A stretch of 64,000 nucleotides of DNA from Clostridia bacterium (GTDB lineage: Bacteria > Bacillota > TC1 > UBA5767): positions 372,001 through 436,000 of the forward strand of contig CP069393.1 in the NCBI GenBank assembly GCA_016887505.1. The letters run 5' to 3'. The notes beneath the pieces were generated by a model, which was given only the letters and a program-made list of their open reading frames with translations, did no database searches and was not told where the DNA came from. Shown one piece after another: positions 2,852-47,338 of this stretch (its first letter is position 1; each line of letters opens with the position of its first letter). Made by a program: the position numbers and the translations under genes.

Positions 2852-3742
2852 CTAGAGAAATAAGAGAAATCCATTAACAGATAGAATAAAGATTAGACAA
2901 ATAGTAAAGAAGCCGTCTGTTTGAAGTAGTGTACTGAAGCTACGCAAGGCTTGACGACCAGGTTCAAGGGTCACCGGAGGGTGACTCTTTTTATATAGGC
3001 TGAATATGAGAAACCACAGTAGGGCAGCTACTAGTGTAAAGGGGATTAAGCTGAGAAGCTGATTTATATCGATGCTAAGGTATTCTGGCATTTTTTCAGA
3101 AGTAATTAAGTACTCTGAGAGTACGATGAATACGTTATAGAAAAAATGGGCATACATTGAGCTGAGTAGCGAACCCGTGAAATATACTAACCAGGCAAAG
3201 AATAGTCCTAGCATGAAGGTATTGGCGAGATTGGCTACACTCAGATGAAGTAGAGCGAATAAGAGTGCAGACGTTATCATGGCAAAGCGCTTACCTTGTT
3301 TACGGTAGGTGGCAAGTAGGATCCCTCTGTGAATTGTCTCTTCAAAAATACCTGGTAGAATAGCCATCCCGATGATGTAGGGTAAAAGAGGGAGGGTTGT
3401 ATCTATTGCGTACTGAGGGGCATATACTGGCCCATGCCAAGATGAAACCAGAAATACTATGAGTGAATTGAAAAAAGCCCCTATAAAGATGAGAGGTAGA
3501 ACGATAAACGGTATAAATATTATATCTTGCATGGAGAGTTTTTGAATAGCAAGATACTTATGGAGATGGCGTTTATTGAACAACAAGAAAATTGCTGTTG
3601 GAATCATAAGTAGGGCAATCTGCGAAAAGAACAGTTCAAAATAGGTGTTTTCATACCAGCTAGTAGGAATAAAATAACCGGAAAAAACAAAAAGGATAAG
3701 GATGATTAGGTAGTAAAGATGAACTTTGCTTTGCTGCTTCAT
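2852..3742 (-). CDS. CPBP family intramembrane glutamic endopeptidase
   Basis: Polytopic membrane protein of the CPBP (Abi/CAAX protease-like) family. About eight hydrophobic stretches are visible. The family motifs are present: EETIHRG (E-E-x-x-x-R box), an FALLHL segment with the second-motif His, and HFFYN in the third motif. The family includes prenyl-protein proteases and bacteriocin self-immunity proteins; the substrate here is unknown. I chose the ATG at 3742 because AGTGAGGAA lies just before it; an in-frame GTG four codons upstream (3754) lacks a good ribosome site. It is convergent with nth and stands alone. Confidence 0.8.
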   Translation of the reverse strand: MKQQSKVHLYYLIILILFVFSGYFIPTSWYENTYFELFFSQIALLMIPTAIFLLFNKRHLHKYLAIQKLSMQDIIFIPFIVLPLIFIGAFFNSLIVFLVSSWHGPVYAPQYAIDTTLPLLPYIIGMAILPGIFEETIHRGILLATYRKQGKRFAMITSALLFALLHLSVANLANTFMLGLFFAWLVYFTGSLLSSMYAHFFYNVFIVLSEYLITSEKMPEYLSIDINQLLSLIPFTLVAALLWFLIFSLYKKSHPPVTLEPGRQALRSFSTLLQTDGFFTICLIFILSVNGFLLFL

Positions 3743-41167: not shown

Positions 41168-42412
41168 TTGGGAGTATTGAGTTATTTGAAAAGTATTTTA
41201 CCATCAAAACAACCAACCAACTGGGGTGGCTGGTTGAGTAATAGCCAGCCAATATTCACAAATTTCGGCCAGGACATTTATCTGTCCGATTATGTGAACA
41301 ACGCTATAGATCGAGTAGCAACTGAGATATCAAAAATTGAAATTAAAAGCATTGTCCAAACAGGTGATATGCTACAAGTCCAAAATGACGATATCACGCG
41401 GCTGTTCAGATTCAAGCCGAACCCATTGCAGACAACGAGTGACTTCTTATCTTGCGTTGAATGGTTGCGGCGAAAGAACGGGAATGCATTTATTTATCCA
41501 CAGTATGAGGTGGTGACGTTGCCCAATGGGCGACAATTCAAGCGGTTCCTGGCGTTTTATCCGTTGAACCCATCGGGGATCTACATTGGCACGATTGATG
41601 GGAAGCCCTGGGAAATACGGTTCGACTTTGCAGATGGCAGCAGCTACACATTGCCCTATGCAGATCTTATCCATTTGAAATGGCGCAGAGGTGTCAACAC
41701 TATAATTGGCGGCGGTGACGACCTTGGTATGATGAACAACAGAGATGTCATTCGAACGCTTGACGCATTAGATAAAACAATCCAGGGATTGCCGAAAAGC
41801 ATCGAGTCAAGCCTTCAAGTCAAGGGAGTATTCTCAGCCAAAACGCTTGGCGATGCAGCCAAAATGAATAAAATCAGGGACGACTTTGAAAGCCACATAA
41901 CGACCAGTAAAAACGGAATGGTCGCAACTGACTTATCCGGAGAATTCACGCCTGTAAAAATTTCGCCACCTGATATTCCAAAAGATGTGATGTCATTTCT
42001 CAAGGCGGTCATGCAAGAACGCTATGGCGTATCAGCCGCGATTCTGTCAGGTGATTATACCGGAAGTCAGCACAGTGCTTTCTACCAGACAACCATCGAA
42101 GATTTTATAGTCCAATTAGAGCAAGCCATGACGGCTTGTTCTTTTAGTATCAGGGAGCAGGATGTAGGACACCGGATCAAGTGCTATTACTCAAAAGTCA
42201 ATTACATGGACAACACTAACAAAATGGAGTTGGCAGGACTGGCCAAAGAGACTGGCATTATGACGTTGAACCAAATCAATGAAATGTTTGGGCTCGCACC
42301 ATTTTCTGGTGGAGACAGAAGGCTGCAGTCTTTGAATTTTGTCAATATTGACGAGGTTGACGATTATCAAAAAAGCAAAGCTGGTGTAAAGGAGAGTGAA
42401 CCGAATGAGTAA
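41168..42412 (+). CDS. Portal protein (HK97 family)
   Basis: 414 residues with the family's order: N-terminal LSDYVNNAIDRVATEISK, FLSCVEWLRRKNGNAFIYP, the LIHLKWR region, and the C-terminal GIMTLNQINEMFGL. It forms the dodecameric DNA gate of the head. TTG start at 41168, six bases after AAGGAGGTTGAG. Confidence 0.94.
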   Translation: MGVLSYLKSILPSKQPTNWGGWLSNSQPIFTNFGQDIYLSDYVNNAIDRVATEISKIEIKSIVQTGDMLQVQNDDITRLFRFKPNPLQTTSDFLSCVEWLRRKNGNAFIYPQYEVVTLPNGRQFKRFLAFYPLNPSGIYIGTIDGKPWEIRFDFADGSSYTLPYADLIHLKWRRGVNTIIGGGDDLGMMNNRDVIRTLDALDKTIQGLPKSIESSLQVKGVFSAKTLGDAAKMNKIRDDFESHITTSKNGMVATDLSGEFTPVKISPPDIPKDVMSFLKAVMQERYGVSAAILSGDYTGSQHSAFYQTTIEDFIVQLEQAMTACSFSIREQDVGHRIKCYYSKVNYMDNTNKMELAGLAKETGIMTLNQINEMFGLAPFSGGDRRLQSLNFVNIDEVDDYQKSKAGVKESEPNE

Positions 42413-43007
42413 AGAAAAATTTGAAAGACGGATTATTGAGATTAGAGCGTCTGATGATGGCGAAGATAAGATGTCCATCGAGGGATATGCGATTACTTTC
42501 GATAAGCCAGCGACTCATAAGACATATAACCGAAAATTTACCGAGGTTATTAAACCAAAGGCTCTTGATAAAACTGACATGAAAGATGTTCCGATGAGGT
42601 ATAACCATAACGACAATGTGATGATTATGGCCCGCACACGCAATAAGTCTTTGCGACTTATTAAAGACAAAAAAGGATTAAAGGTCGAAGCAGACCTTCT
42701 TGACACTCAGAGTAATAGAGATTTATATAAGGCTATCAATGAGGGCCTTATCGATAAAATGAGCTTTGCATTCAACGTTGCGGAAGGCGGTGACACGTGG
42801 ACCTTCAAGGACGATGAAACGATTAGAGAAGTTAACAATATTGAGAAACTGTGGGATGTATCGGTTGTGGACACACCGTTCTACGACAGTACCTCAATTT
42901 ATGCTCGCAGCTTGGAATTGCTGGATAGCGAGGAAAAGCGGCTGGATAGCTTACACGAGCGAGAACTACTGAAGCTAAGGATTAAATTGAAAGGTGAGGC
43001 TAATTAA
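42405..43007 (+). CDS. Prohead protease (HK97 U35 family)
   Basis: 200 residues. The family's catalytic His (MRYNHND) and Ser (KMSFAF) regions and the final VSVVDTPFY motif are visible. It cleaves scaffold or capsid N-termini during maturation. ATG 42405 overlaps the portal gene and follows GGAGAG. No separate scaffold gene is seen, so the delta domain is probably the N-terminal part of the capsid protein. Confidence 0.92.
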   Translation: MSKEKFERRIIEIRASDDGEDKMSIEGYAITFDKPATHKTYNRKFTEVIKPKALDKTDMKDVPMRYNHNDNVMIMARTRNKSLRLIKDKKGLKVEADLLDTQSNRDLYKAINEGLIDKMSFAFNVAEGGDTWTFKDDETIREVNNIEKLWDVSVVDTPFYDSTSIYARSLELLDSEEKRLDSLHERELLKLRIKLKGEAN

Positions 43008-43008
43008 A

Positions 43009-44214
43009 ATGAAAGATAAATTACTAAAAATGTTAGCAGCAAAAAAAGAAGCAAGAGACGCAAAGGTCGCATCTGCTGAAACTATCGAAAGCGTAGAAGA
43101 ATTACGCAGCATAAATGGTATCGTAGATGCATTGAATGTTGAAATCAGAGACCTAGAAGACATGATTGCAAAACTTCCAGAAGATGCACCTACTGTTGAG
43201 AGAACTGCAGCAGTAAACGGTACTACTCCTGGTATGGTTTCTGCACCCATCATTGAAAGAACTGCAGAAAATGGTGATATGGAATACAGAAAGGCATTCC
43301 AGCAGTTCATTACTCGTGGAACGCCCATTGCTCCGGAGCTGAGAACTGATGCGAGCACCAAGACCTCCGACGTCGGTAGCGTAATTCCTACGGCCATTGC
43401 GAATCGTATCATCGAGAAACTAGAAGCGACTGGTATGATCTTGCCACTGATCACTAAGACCAGTTTTGCTTCTGGTGTGAACATTCCAACATCCAGCGTG
43501 AAGCCGGTTGCTACTTGGGTTTCAGAAGGTGCATCTTCTGACAAACAGAAGAAGACCACATCCTTTATTAGTTTCTCTGCATTCAAACTTCGTTGCGAAA
43601 TCTCTATGTCCGCCGAAGTCGGAGCAATGGCACTTGCAATCTTCGAGGATAAGTTTGTCTCACAGGTTGTCGAAGCAATGGTTAAGAAAATTGAATCTAC
43701 GATTTTCTCTGGTGCAGATGGTACTACTTCTCCAAAAGGTATCTTCGCTGAGACTGTTGTCTCTGGCCAGAACGTTGATGTCGCCGCAAATGGCAAATTG
43801 GAATATCAAACACTGGTTGATGCAGAAGCAGCCTTGCCTTTAGCATATGAATCCGAGGCATTATGGCACATGACCAAGAAAACATTTATGGGATTCATCG
43901 GAATGAAGGATACAGCCGGACAGCCAATCGCACGCGTCAACTATGGAATCAGTGGAGCTCCTGAGAGAACACTGTTAGGACGTGGGGTTGTTCTCAACGA
44001 ATACATGGACAGCTATGCCAGCACTGTAGTCAGTGACACCATCGTTGCAGCAATCTTTAATCTGAAGGACTATGTTTTGAACACCATCTATGACATGGGC
44101 GTTCAGAAAAAGCAGGACTGGGATACTGAGGACATGTTGACTAAAGCTGTGATGTCTGTGGATGGTAAAGTCGTAGATAAAAACTCCTTGGTAACCGTGA
44201 CAAAAAAAGCGTAG
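43009..44214 (+). CDS. Major capsid protein (HK97 fold)
   Basis: 401 residues. An N-terminal coiled delta domain (about 1-100) precedes the HK97-fold part, with the N-arm/E-loop region VGSVIPTAIANRIIEKLEAT, then KPVATWVSEGASS and KTFMGFIGMKDTAGQ. The prohead protease would cut near residue 80-100. The zero-frame product ends VTVTKKA at a run of seven A followed by TAG. That run, with the stem-loop after it, should let some ribosomes shift to -1 and add an Ig-like domain (494 residues in total). Confidence 0.94.
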   Translation: MKDKLLKMLAAKKEARDAKVASAETIESVEELRSINGIVDALNVEIRDLEDMIAKLPEDAPTVERTAAVNGTTPGMVSAPIIERTAENGDMEYRKAFQQFITRGTPIAPELRTDASTKTSDVGSVIPTAIANRIIEKLEATGMILPLITKTSFASGVNIPTSSVKPVATWVSEGASSDKQKKTTSFISFSAFKLRCEISMSAEVGAMALAIFEDKFVSQVVEAMVKKIESTIFSGADGTTSPKGIFAETVVSGQNVDVAANGKLEYQTLVDAEAALPLAYESEALWHMTKKTFMGFIGMKDTAGQPIARVNYGISGAPERTLLGRGVVLNEYMDSYASTVVSDTIVAAIFNLKDYVLNTIYDMGVQKKQDWDTEDMLTKAVMSVDGKVVDKNSLVTVTKKA

Positions 44215-44246
44215 TCGATAGCTCATTATCCGGATTGACTATCGGC
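44202..44246 (+). promoter_or_regulatory. -1 programmed ribosomal frameshift signal at the capsid gene end
   Basis: Slippery heptamer A_AAA_AAA in the zero frame (44202-44208), a five-base spacer carrying most of the stop codon, then an eight-pair stem, GTCGATAG (44214-44221) with CTATCGGC (44239-44246), and a 17-base loop. All three parts of a classical -1 signal are present at normal spacing. Confidence 0.8.
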
Positions 44247-44492
44247 GCTTTAGCACTCGACCCAGTATTTGACGCTGAAACACTTGCATATGCGGTGGCA
44301 ACAACCAATGCGACCAATGTGATCACGGCAACGACGGACGACCCGTCAGCCGTGATTGATATTGATCTCAATGGCGAACCTCATGTAAATGGTGAGGCAG
44401 CAAGCTGGGAAGCCGGAGAAAACATAGTGACAATCACAGTGACAGATGGAGAATCAGAAACAGAGTACGTCGTGACTGTTACGAAGTCCTAG
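44208..44492 (+). CDS. Ig-like (cadherin-like beta-sandwich) C-terminal extension of the capsid protein
   Basis: 94 residues read in the -1 frame from the slippery site. The domain opens SSLSGLTIGALALDPVFDAE, the typical start of cadherin-like beta-sandwich modules, and ends VTITVTDGESETEYVVTVTK. The frame is open right back to the slippery site, and the residues coded before the only possible separate start (TTG 44235) are part of the conserved first strand. That makes a fusion more likely than an independent gene. Ig-like domains on phage heads are thought to bind carbohydrate or surfaces. Confidence 0.78.
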   Translation, partial: SVVDSSLSGLTIGALALDPVFDAETLAYAVATTNATNVITATTDDPSAVIDIDLNGEPHVNGEAASWEAGENIVTITVTDGESETEYVVTVTKS

Positions 44493-44504
44493 AGGTGATA
44501 CATT

Positions 44505-44774
44505 ATGGCACTAATTGATGACGTAAAGAGAAGACTCGGTATCAATTACACCGAGGAAAATAAAGAAGCAGAAATTGCTCAGATGATTAGTGCGGCTCAA
44601 GAGTATTTTGCGGGTGCTGGTTGGGACACCACCAGCGCCTCCCCTCTTGTGGTTGAGGCTATTGCACTCTTTTGCAAGATGGCACAATCAACAGACCCCG
44701 CATCACTAACTAATCATCCAGTATTACTCAGCTATATCATACAGGGTAGGACGGTGGCTGCTGATGATGATTAA
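44505..44774 (+). CDS. Head-tail connector protein (HK97 gp6-like)
   Basis: 89 helical residues (LIDDVKRRLGI, AEIAQMISAAQEYFAGAGW, VEAIALFCKMAQ) typical of the adaptor ring that sits on the portal. It directly follows the capsid gene. Overlaps the next gene. Confidence 0.8.
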   Translation: MALIDDVKRRLGINYTEENKEAEIAQMISAAQEYFAGAGWDTTSASPLVVEAIALFCKMAQSTDPASLTNHPVLLSYIIQGRTVAADDD

Positions 44775-45923: not shown

Positions 45924-46748
45924 ATGAGCGAAAATAAGATAAAGTATGGACTTAAAAATGTCCATTATGCACCTATTACAGAGTCGGATGGTGTCATTGC
46001 GTATGCTACCCCGGTCTTGATCCCTGGTGCAGTTAATTTGTCGCTGTCTGCATCCGGTGACAAACTGGAATTCTATGCAGACGATGTGGAGTATTACGAG
46101 GAACAAGTGAACAATGGCTATGAGGGAAGTTTGGAAATTGCTGTCATTCCAGATTCTTTCCGGGTGGACATTCTGGGTGATACTATAGACGGCAACGGTG
46201 CATTGATAGAGAACGCTAACGCGAAGCCCAATAAATTCGCTCTGATGTTTGAGTTTAATGGCGACGCTAAGAAAGTCAGACATATTGCATATTATGTAAG
46301 TGGGTCCAGACCAAACGTCGAGGGCAGCACCAAGACTAGCAGCAAAGAGCCAAAGACCGACAGTATGGATATCACCGTCAGACCTCACCCAACAAACGGC
46401 AACGTTAAGGCTAAAGTCAAAGAGGGCACTGCTGGTTATGATGATTTTTACACTGCTGTTTATGTTGAAAATGCAGCAATCAATACGCTGACTGCTATCA
46501 CAGCAGCCTTTAGCAAAGGAGCTCCAGCCGATGTTGAGGTCGATGTGACTTCCACTGATGCAACCAACGCTGTAAAGAATGTTATGCTTGACGATGCTAA
46601 TATCGGCGGCGTGTACTTGACCCCGAATGGTGTTGATGTTGATATTGACAGTGCGGTTTTTGCAACTCTTGATAATGGCGATTATATCGTGACGGTTGAA
46701 TTCGACAAAGGTAACTCAGTCATGGGCATTGTAACGGTTAGCGACTAG
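45924..46748 (+). CDS. Major tail protein with C-terminal X2/Ig-like domain
   Basis: 274 residues. The first 180 are a phi13-type tail tube protein (KYGLKNVHYAPITE, NGYEGSLEIAVIPDSF, ENANAKPNKFALMFEFNGD). The last 90 (from about residue 185; FSKGAPADVEVDVTSTDATN to GDYIVTVEFDKGN) form an X2/CBM-type Ig-like module. No slippery site separates the two, so every subunit would carry the module. This is a second decorating domain in the same particle. Confidence 0.88.
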   Translation: MSENKIKYGLKNVHYAPITESDGVIAYATPVLIPGAVNLSLSASGDKLEFYADDVEYYEEQVNNGYEGSLEIAVIPDSFRVDILGDTIDGNGALIENANAKPNKFALMFEFNGDAKKVRHIAYYVSGSRPNVEGSTKTSSKEPKTDSMDITVRPHPTNGNVKAKVKEGTAGYDDFYTAVYVENAAINTLTAITAAFSKGAPADVEVDVTSTDATNAVKNVMLDDANIGGVYLTPNGVDVDIDSAVFATLDNGDYIVTVEFDKGNSVMGIVTVSD

Positions 46749-46760
46749 GAGGTTAGGATT

Positions 46761-47123
46761 GTGGAAAAAGTAATTGAAATTGATGGTCGTCAGATACCAT
46801 TCAAAAGCACTGGTGCTTATTTAATTAGATACAAACAGCAATTCGGACGTGATGCAATTCAGGACCTTTGCAAGATTGACCAAGCAATAAAACAAGAAAC
46901 CAAAGAATCTCCAGCGAAGGTTGTTGACGTTGATGCTTTTGACATGTTGATATTTTACGACATGGTGTGGACACTGGCAAAGACCGCAGACCCTGATATA
47001 TTGCCACCAATGGAGTGGCTGGACACTTTTTCCACGTTCCCACTGACTGATCACTTGGGCGAATGGCTTGAAATGATTCGTAGCTCCTTTAGCACGGTTG
47101 TCGAAAGTAAAAAAAAACCATAG
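46761..47123 (+). CDS. Tail assembly chaperone, short form (gpG-like)
   Basis: 120 residues read from a GTG start after GAGGTTAGG. The helical protein ends SKKKP at nine consecutive A. It lies between the tail tube and tape measure genes, the standard place of the lambda G/GT chaperone pair. Frameshifting would give the 187-residue long form. Confidence 0.85.
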   Translation: MEKVIEIDGRQIPFKSTGAYLIRYKQQFGRDAIQDLCKIDQAIKQETKESPAKVVDVDAFDMLIFYDMVWTLAKTADPDILPPMEWLDTFSTFPLTDHLGEWLEMIRSSFSTVVESKKKP

Positions 47124-47323
47124 TTAACGACACCCCCTTTGAACTCACAACGGAGAAATTGCTACACAGTGCGATCAAGGGGGGCTTGTCTTTATCTGAC
47201 TTTGATAGGATGACTGTTGGAATGATTCTTGATTACTTGACAACATGTGTCAACGAGTTGTTGGAATCCGAAGAAGATGATGGCAGTAGGATGGCAGGAC
47301 AGGATGATTTCGATTCATTCTAA
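47109..47323 (+). CDS. -1 frameshift extension of the tail assembly chaperone (gpGT-like)
   Basis: Nine A (47109-47117) in the zero frame AAA AAA AAA allow a -1 slip. From 47117 the -1 frame is open for 68 codons to TAA 47321-47323 and encodes FELTTEKLLHSAIKGGLSLS, then DRMTVGMILDYLTTC and an acidic tail. There is no ribosome site or good start for it alone, and it ends just before the tape measure gene, which uses the GT extension in assembly. I see no clear stimulatory hairpin. Confidence 0.8.
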
Positions 47324-47338
47324 AGGTAGGTGAAAGAT

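Follow-up and report, generated by a model that had tools for sequence, protein, structure and literature searches.

The major capsid gene of a siphophage-type prophage very probably ends in a working programmed -1 ribosomal frameshift, which is predicted to yield a 494-residue minor capsid form with a C-terminal Ig-like (Cadherin-like) domain next to the 401-residue major form. The gene lies in a 64,000-nt stretch (hereafter the window; contig CP069393.1, positions 372,001 to 436,000) of a 2.56-Mb bacterial genome, assembled as a single contig. What was obtained directly is the signal with its conservation, the register and the appended domain; from these we infer the slippage itself, its rate and the presence of the long form in the shell. 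Comparison of related loci shows such predicted substoichiometric Ig-like display on the capsid to be under selection, and to recur on at least three capsid families.

The capsid gene end and its frameshift signal

The genes of the prophage are arranged in the order terminase, S78 protease, capsid, connectors and tail tube (Table 1). The capsid protein is assigned to the HK97 type on two grounds, namely, I) its match to the Phage_capsid family, and II) the S78 protease gene upstream; it also matches the major head protein family phrog_10 (E 5e-45). The gene ends in ACA AAA AAA GCG TAG, with the zero-frame stop at 44212-44214. Its heptamer conforms to the X_XXY_YYZ form and lies within the frame overlap, which opens 31 nt ahead of the stop. 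The heptamer, five-base spacer, eight-pair stem and 94-codon -1 frame are thus all located where a sequence-only reading of this DNA had placed them.

Table 1. Features at the 3' end of the capsid gene and its neighbours (window coordinates).
Feature	Position	Strand	Basis and remarks
Prohead serine protease S78 gene	42396..43007	+	PF04586 E 7.7e-39; just 5' of capsid gene
Major capsid protein gene, HK97 fold, 401 aa, zero-frame product	43009..44214	+	PF05065 E 1.2e-36
Slippery heptamer A_AAA_AAA, zero frame	44202..44208	+	sequence; identical in 9/9 aligned sequences
5-nt spacer GCGTA, contains first two bases of zero-frame stop	44209..44213	+	sequence
Stem-loop, 8 pairs + 1-nt bulge + 3 pairs, 10-nt loop	44214..44246	+	fold, comparison
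-1 frame extension, 94 codons Cadherin-like/Ig-like + stop TAG	44208..44492	+	PF12733 E 4e-8
Next gene, neck/connector-type protein	44505..44774	+	phrog_5223 neck protein E 2e-6

The putative 3' stimulatory stem is embedded in codons for the first strand of the Ig domain. Its main part (44214-44221 with 44239-44246) contains eight pairs, one of them G-U, and an inner extension beyond a one-base bulge (44223-44225 with 44236-44238) adds three more, giving 11 in total. The spacer of 5 nt is conserved and falls within the range of 5-9 nt described for structures 3' of -1 sites (PMC5009743). No Shine-Dalgarno-like stimulator was seen upstream of the heptamer. Folded alone, the hairpin reaches -10.9 kcal/mol (z -2.4; 5 of 200 shuffles equally good), a modest value for single-sequence fold energy. 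As a sole criterion, the fold energy of the window sequence was rejected as too weak, with z ranging from -0.5 to -2.4 depending on the folding window, and a longer minimum-free-energy stem, which includes pairs with the heptamer, was discarded, its outer part being absent in three relatives (L091, L093 and L095). The hairpin rises above chance because of comparison, i.e., the recurrence of the junction in eight other contigs, the synonymous identity and the intact pairs described below.

The -1 frame is open for 94 codons (44208-44489), and slippage would join these to 400 capsid residues, which bears out the fusion size of 494 residues against 401 given by the sequence-only reading. The predicted junction peptide, ...VTVTKKSVVDSSLSGL, spans VTKK-SVVDSS. 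That the extension forms a full cadherin/Ig-like module, as had also been claimed, agrees with its Pfam match to the Cadherin-like domain and with an AlphaFold2 model that forms an all-beta sandwich (pLDDT 84.2). The best PDB match of this model is a chain stretch of AgaBb, a bacterial alpha-1,3-galactosidase (TMq 0.74), and the phrog_10 profile itself includes such a domain C-terminally (positions 662-740).

In the proposed mechanism, the majority of ribosomes would terminate at the TAG at 44212 and release the major capsid protein. A minority would pause at the stem-loop while AAA AAA occupies the P and A sites; both tRNA-Lys would then move back by one base, and translation would go on to the end of the -1 frame, giving the minor form with its C-terminal Ig-like domain. 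The long form would be built into the shell, where the displayed domain may bind weakly to carbohydrates or surfaces, in line with the general proposal for phage Ig-like domains. Among the host tRNAs identified (Rfam search, and ARAGORN on loci; four long matches of leucine/serine size left untyped), lysine tRNA has the anticodon UUU only, in two copies. It is with UUU as the sole lysine anticodon that A_AAA_AAR sites are known to slip in E. coli. In that organism A_AAA_AAA is reported to shift far less readily than A_AAA_AAG (PMC5009743), and the rate at the capsid junction may therefore be low.

Conservation in close relatives and alternative readings

A capsid search of IMG/VR returned 59 loci, and further loci were collected by using the Ig domain and the junction as queries. 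Besides the window, eight metagenomic phage contigs keep ACAAAAAAAGCGTAG, the stop, the -1 register, the domain and the stem, with capsids 63-76% identical to that of the window (87% for L095, a capsid fragment). The sequence-only reading would have been contradicted by related phages in which a separate gene with its own ribosome site encodes the Ig module and the A-run is not conserved; all eight relatives have the arrangement just described. Two of them (L091 and L095) had first been found by a DNA pattern that included the 5' arm, and the conservation test was rerun without them on the seven sequences (the window and six others) from the protein search. In these seven, synonymous codon identity is 0.90 in the 13 stem-region codons versus 0.57 across the remainder of the domain; among five representatives the values are 0.89 and 0.49, respectively (permutation p 5e-5). 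All 11 stem pairs are intact in all nine sequences, where one-sided changes keep a standard or a G-U pair. Of the covariation that had been suggested as a check, the joint retention of heptamer and stem was thus found, and no two-sided compensation occurs in the stem among the nine closest sequences. In a further relative (L015/L137, IMGVR_UViG_3300022177_000047), the capsid is 64% identical and GCA AAA AAA GCT TAG is kept, and what follows in the -1 frame is a different Ig-like module, CHB_HEX_C_1/Fn3-associated (PF13290, E 8e-23), that is not homologous to the Cadherin-like one; its hairpin, which is located about 20 nt from the heptamer, was not counted as a matching signal.

Transcriptional slippage, i.e., stuttering of the polymerase on A7 that alters the number of A residues in some mRNAs and so gives rise to the fusion, is an improbable source of the long form, although it could account for part of the -1 reading. 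The run is uninterrupted in all nine sequences, as this explanation would have it, yet seven is short. Polymerase slippage usually takes runs of nine or more. Moreover, such slippage does not depend on RNA structure further downstream, yet synonymous sites within the stem are conserved, and sister junctions combine non-homopolymer sites, such as A_AAC_CCT and GGGGGAA, with the same hairpin at the same 5-nt spacing. Still less probable is the synthesis of the Ig module as a separate small protein via reinitiation or internal initiation. The sole candidate start is the -1-frame TTG at 44235 (ORF 44235-44492), and two distant relatives (L207 and L154) do contain an ATG overlapping the stop. The TTG is located within the hairpin and, as the sequence-only reading had pointed out, within the first strand, which begins before it; it is not accompanied by a ribosome site, and no ATG or GTG precedes the first strand in the window or the eight close relatives. 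Separate initiation would also leave unexplained the fixed heptamer and the exclusive -1 register of the 48 junctions described below. A sequencing error in an error-prone homopolymer of seven, or the decay of an in-frame fusion of the kind that occurs elsewhere (L083 and L086-L090), can be set aside as extremely improbable because the arrangement repeats in eight further contigs, which are independent assemblies with both frames conserved, and a like -1 junction is present in a second single-contig genome (L258).

Capsid and Ig-domain junctions across capsid families

The wider family was searched with an alignment of nine Ig domains, followed by a held-out search that used an alignment of greater diversity, and loci were sorted by whether the Ig domain continues the upstream reading frame. 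Near-duplicates and three shadow-ORF artefacts (L302, L303 and L324) were removed, and L258, from another single-contig genome, was added. All 48 distinct out-of-frame capsid/Ig junctions that resulted are -1 and none is +1, a count that is not one of independent events, as the collections contain related sequences. Those upstream proteins that were tested belong to three families of major head protein (phrog_10, phrog_422 and phrog_544), except that of L165, which has no match. A tblastn search with the Ig domain in an annotated phage collection gave no matches.

Several classes of slip site were distinguished among the 48 junctions, namely, AAACCCN (14), AAAAAAAGCN (9), GGGGGAA (9), AACCCCN (6) and AAAAAAC-type (4), with few of any other kind. 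GGGGGAA and AACCCCN are outside the classical X_XXY_YYZ form. The former, which is followed directly by the stop, was seen in L154, L156, L157, L162, L165, L170, L211, L313 and L323, on at least three capsid types and in several cases with a stem 5 nt downstream; it is possibly an unrecognised -1 slip site. Individual loci show more elaborate arrangements. In L202 (near 3001), the capsid is followed in frame by a Cadherin-like domain just under the Pfam cut-off and then, in the -1 frame, by a second one, and in L207 (near 1298) an in-frame CHB_HEX domain precedes the -1 frameshift into a Cadherin-like domain; both would represent serial decoration of the capsid. In L173, capsid and Ig domain share one frame and are separated by an in-frame TGA (2998-3000), which suggests readthrough, a recoded TGA or an error.

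The hairpin is a property of the frameshift loci as a group. Compared with codon-preserving shuffles, their first-strand codons have a mean z of -1.92 (n=26, 15 below -2), versus -0.42 for in-frame fusions of the Cadherin-like domain (n=22, 2 below -2; p 3e-4). In the held-out set, with the three artefacts still included, the means are -1.77 and -0.42, respectively (p 0.007). In 22 of 47 junctions the best stem starts exactly 5 nt past the slip site, which is the modal spacing, versus 8.5% under a null of synonymous recoding, and the p-value for this preference ignores relatedness. Example hairpins have energies of -16.8 to -23.3 kcal/mol (z -3.6 to -4.7). Two pairing registers dominate: type A, that of the window, accompanies A7, A6G and GGGGGAA sites, and type B accompanies C-containing sites, with one exception among the typed loci. 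Type B displays clear covariation, with two-sided changes in 6 of its 12 pairs, and its score is 0.375 versus 0.134 +/- 0.027 when shuffled and at most 0.098 when slid. In the wider type A set, 95.5% of cells are paired, and two pairs have a two-sided change.

These distributions raise the possibility, rated at slightly less than even odds, that the Cadherin-like domain moves between phage capsid genes together with its own -1 signal, as one self-contained unit. Such a unit would comprise the last capsid codons with the slip site, the 5-nt spacer over the stop, and the hairpin in the first-strand codons. On this view the frameshift would belong to what is transferred, as opposed to being a chance rescue of domains that landed out of frame. 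AAACCCN with type B is found on both phrog_10 and phrog_422 capsids, and GGGGGAA on phrog_10, phrog_422 and one capsid without PHROG assignment. The same junction class is shared by capsids without detectable similarity (L159 and L167; L156 and L157), and different classes are found on capsids that are 68-69% identical (L156 and L159; L162 and L167). In pairs of unrelated capsids, Ig identity is 54.2% within the same slip class versus 53.6% between different classes (permutation p 0.22); this test lends no support to the idea of a junction type moving along with Ig domains of close similarity. With junctions and capsids mixed in this way but Ig identity no higher within a slip class, transfer of the whole unit is plausible and no more than that. 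Taken together, the comparisons suggest a frameshift-plus-Ig module that is recurrent and perhaps transferable.

Relation to known systems and other features of the prophage

The kind of arrangement described here is already known. Frameshifting makes a share of the C-terminal Ig-like domains in diverse phages, and it has been documented for the coat proteins of T3, A2 and the Listeria phages A118 and A500 (all -1) and PSA (+1), as reviewed in 2016 (PMC5009743). The sequence-only reading was right that frameshift-appended Ig-like domains on phage structural proteins are known, T3 and A2 being examples; its emphasis on this exact capsid arrangement is weakened by T3, A2, A118 and A500, and by dozens of close parallels in IMG/VR. 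As predicted for the window, translation of the major head gene of Lactobacillus phage A2 shifts to -1 close to the end of that gene (Garcia et al. 2004, cited in PMC5009743), and a second, longer capsid component with an Ig-like domain results. Compared with the review's description of A2, the window differs in its Ig family (Cadherin-like, PF12733) and its heptamer A_AAA_AAA. Gene 10 of phage T3 likewise gives two products from one coat gene, the minor one with an Ig-like C-terminal extension, but T3 is, by the same description, a podovirus with a different capsid protein. A118, A500 and PSA, which are phages of Gram-positive hosts, also make a second coat form by frameshifting; PSA shifts +1 at proline codons with a pseudoknot, a direction with no case among the 48 junctions of the present family.

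The same Cadherin-like domain family is also present in in-frame fusions (L083, L086, L172, L174, L177 and L208), carried by the phage major capsid (phrog_10) or tail tube (phrog_88 and phrog_885). Unlike in the window, the domain there is on every subunit, and neither a slip site nor an excess of hairpins is found. Display of one domain on all subunits or on few is therefore directly comparable. The breadth of the arrangement across capsid families goes further than the known cases, and no paper describing a uniform -1 register with a domain-embedded hairpin across capsid families was found in the part of the literature covered. According to a view relayed in PMC5009743, the register of phage Ig domains reflects the chance landing of mobile domains; the strict -1 register and the embedded hairpin put this explanation in question. 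The junctions also provide natural variants of slip site, spacer and stem for studying the response of bacterial ribosomes, and they are a reminder that capsid-linked Ig domains of the frameshift kind are easily missed by gene callers.

Other parts of the prophage have related features. At its C-terminus the tail tube protein (45924-46745) carries, in frame, a domain of its own that matches CBM_X2 below threshold, and the virion may display Ig-like modules on head and tail alike. Downstream, a small gene (46761-47123) ends in AGT AAA AAA AAA CCA TAG, with an A9 run near 47107-47117, and the -1 frame after it runs on for about 75 codons (KKTIVNDTPFELTTEKLL...). The region 46761-47330 is predicted to be a probable second -1 frameshift of the same prophage, and it fits the tail-chaperone G/GT arrangement that is usual just before the tape measure gene. 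Lastly, adjoining genes for tRNA-Gly(TCC) and tRNA-Arg(TCT) are located downstream of the phage genes (60936-61102), and this pair possibly marks the prophage boundary.
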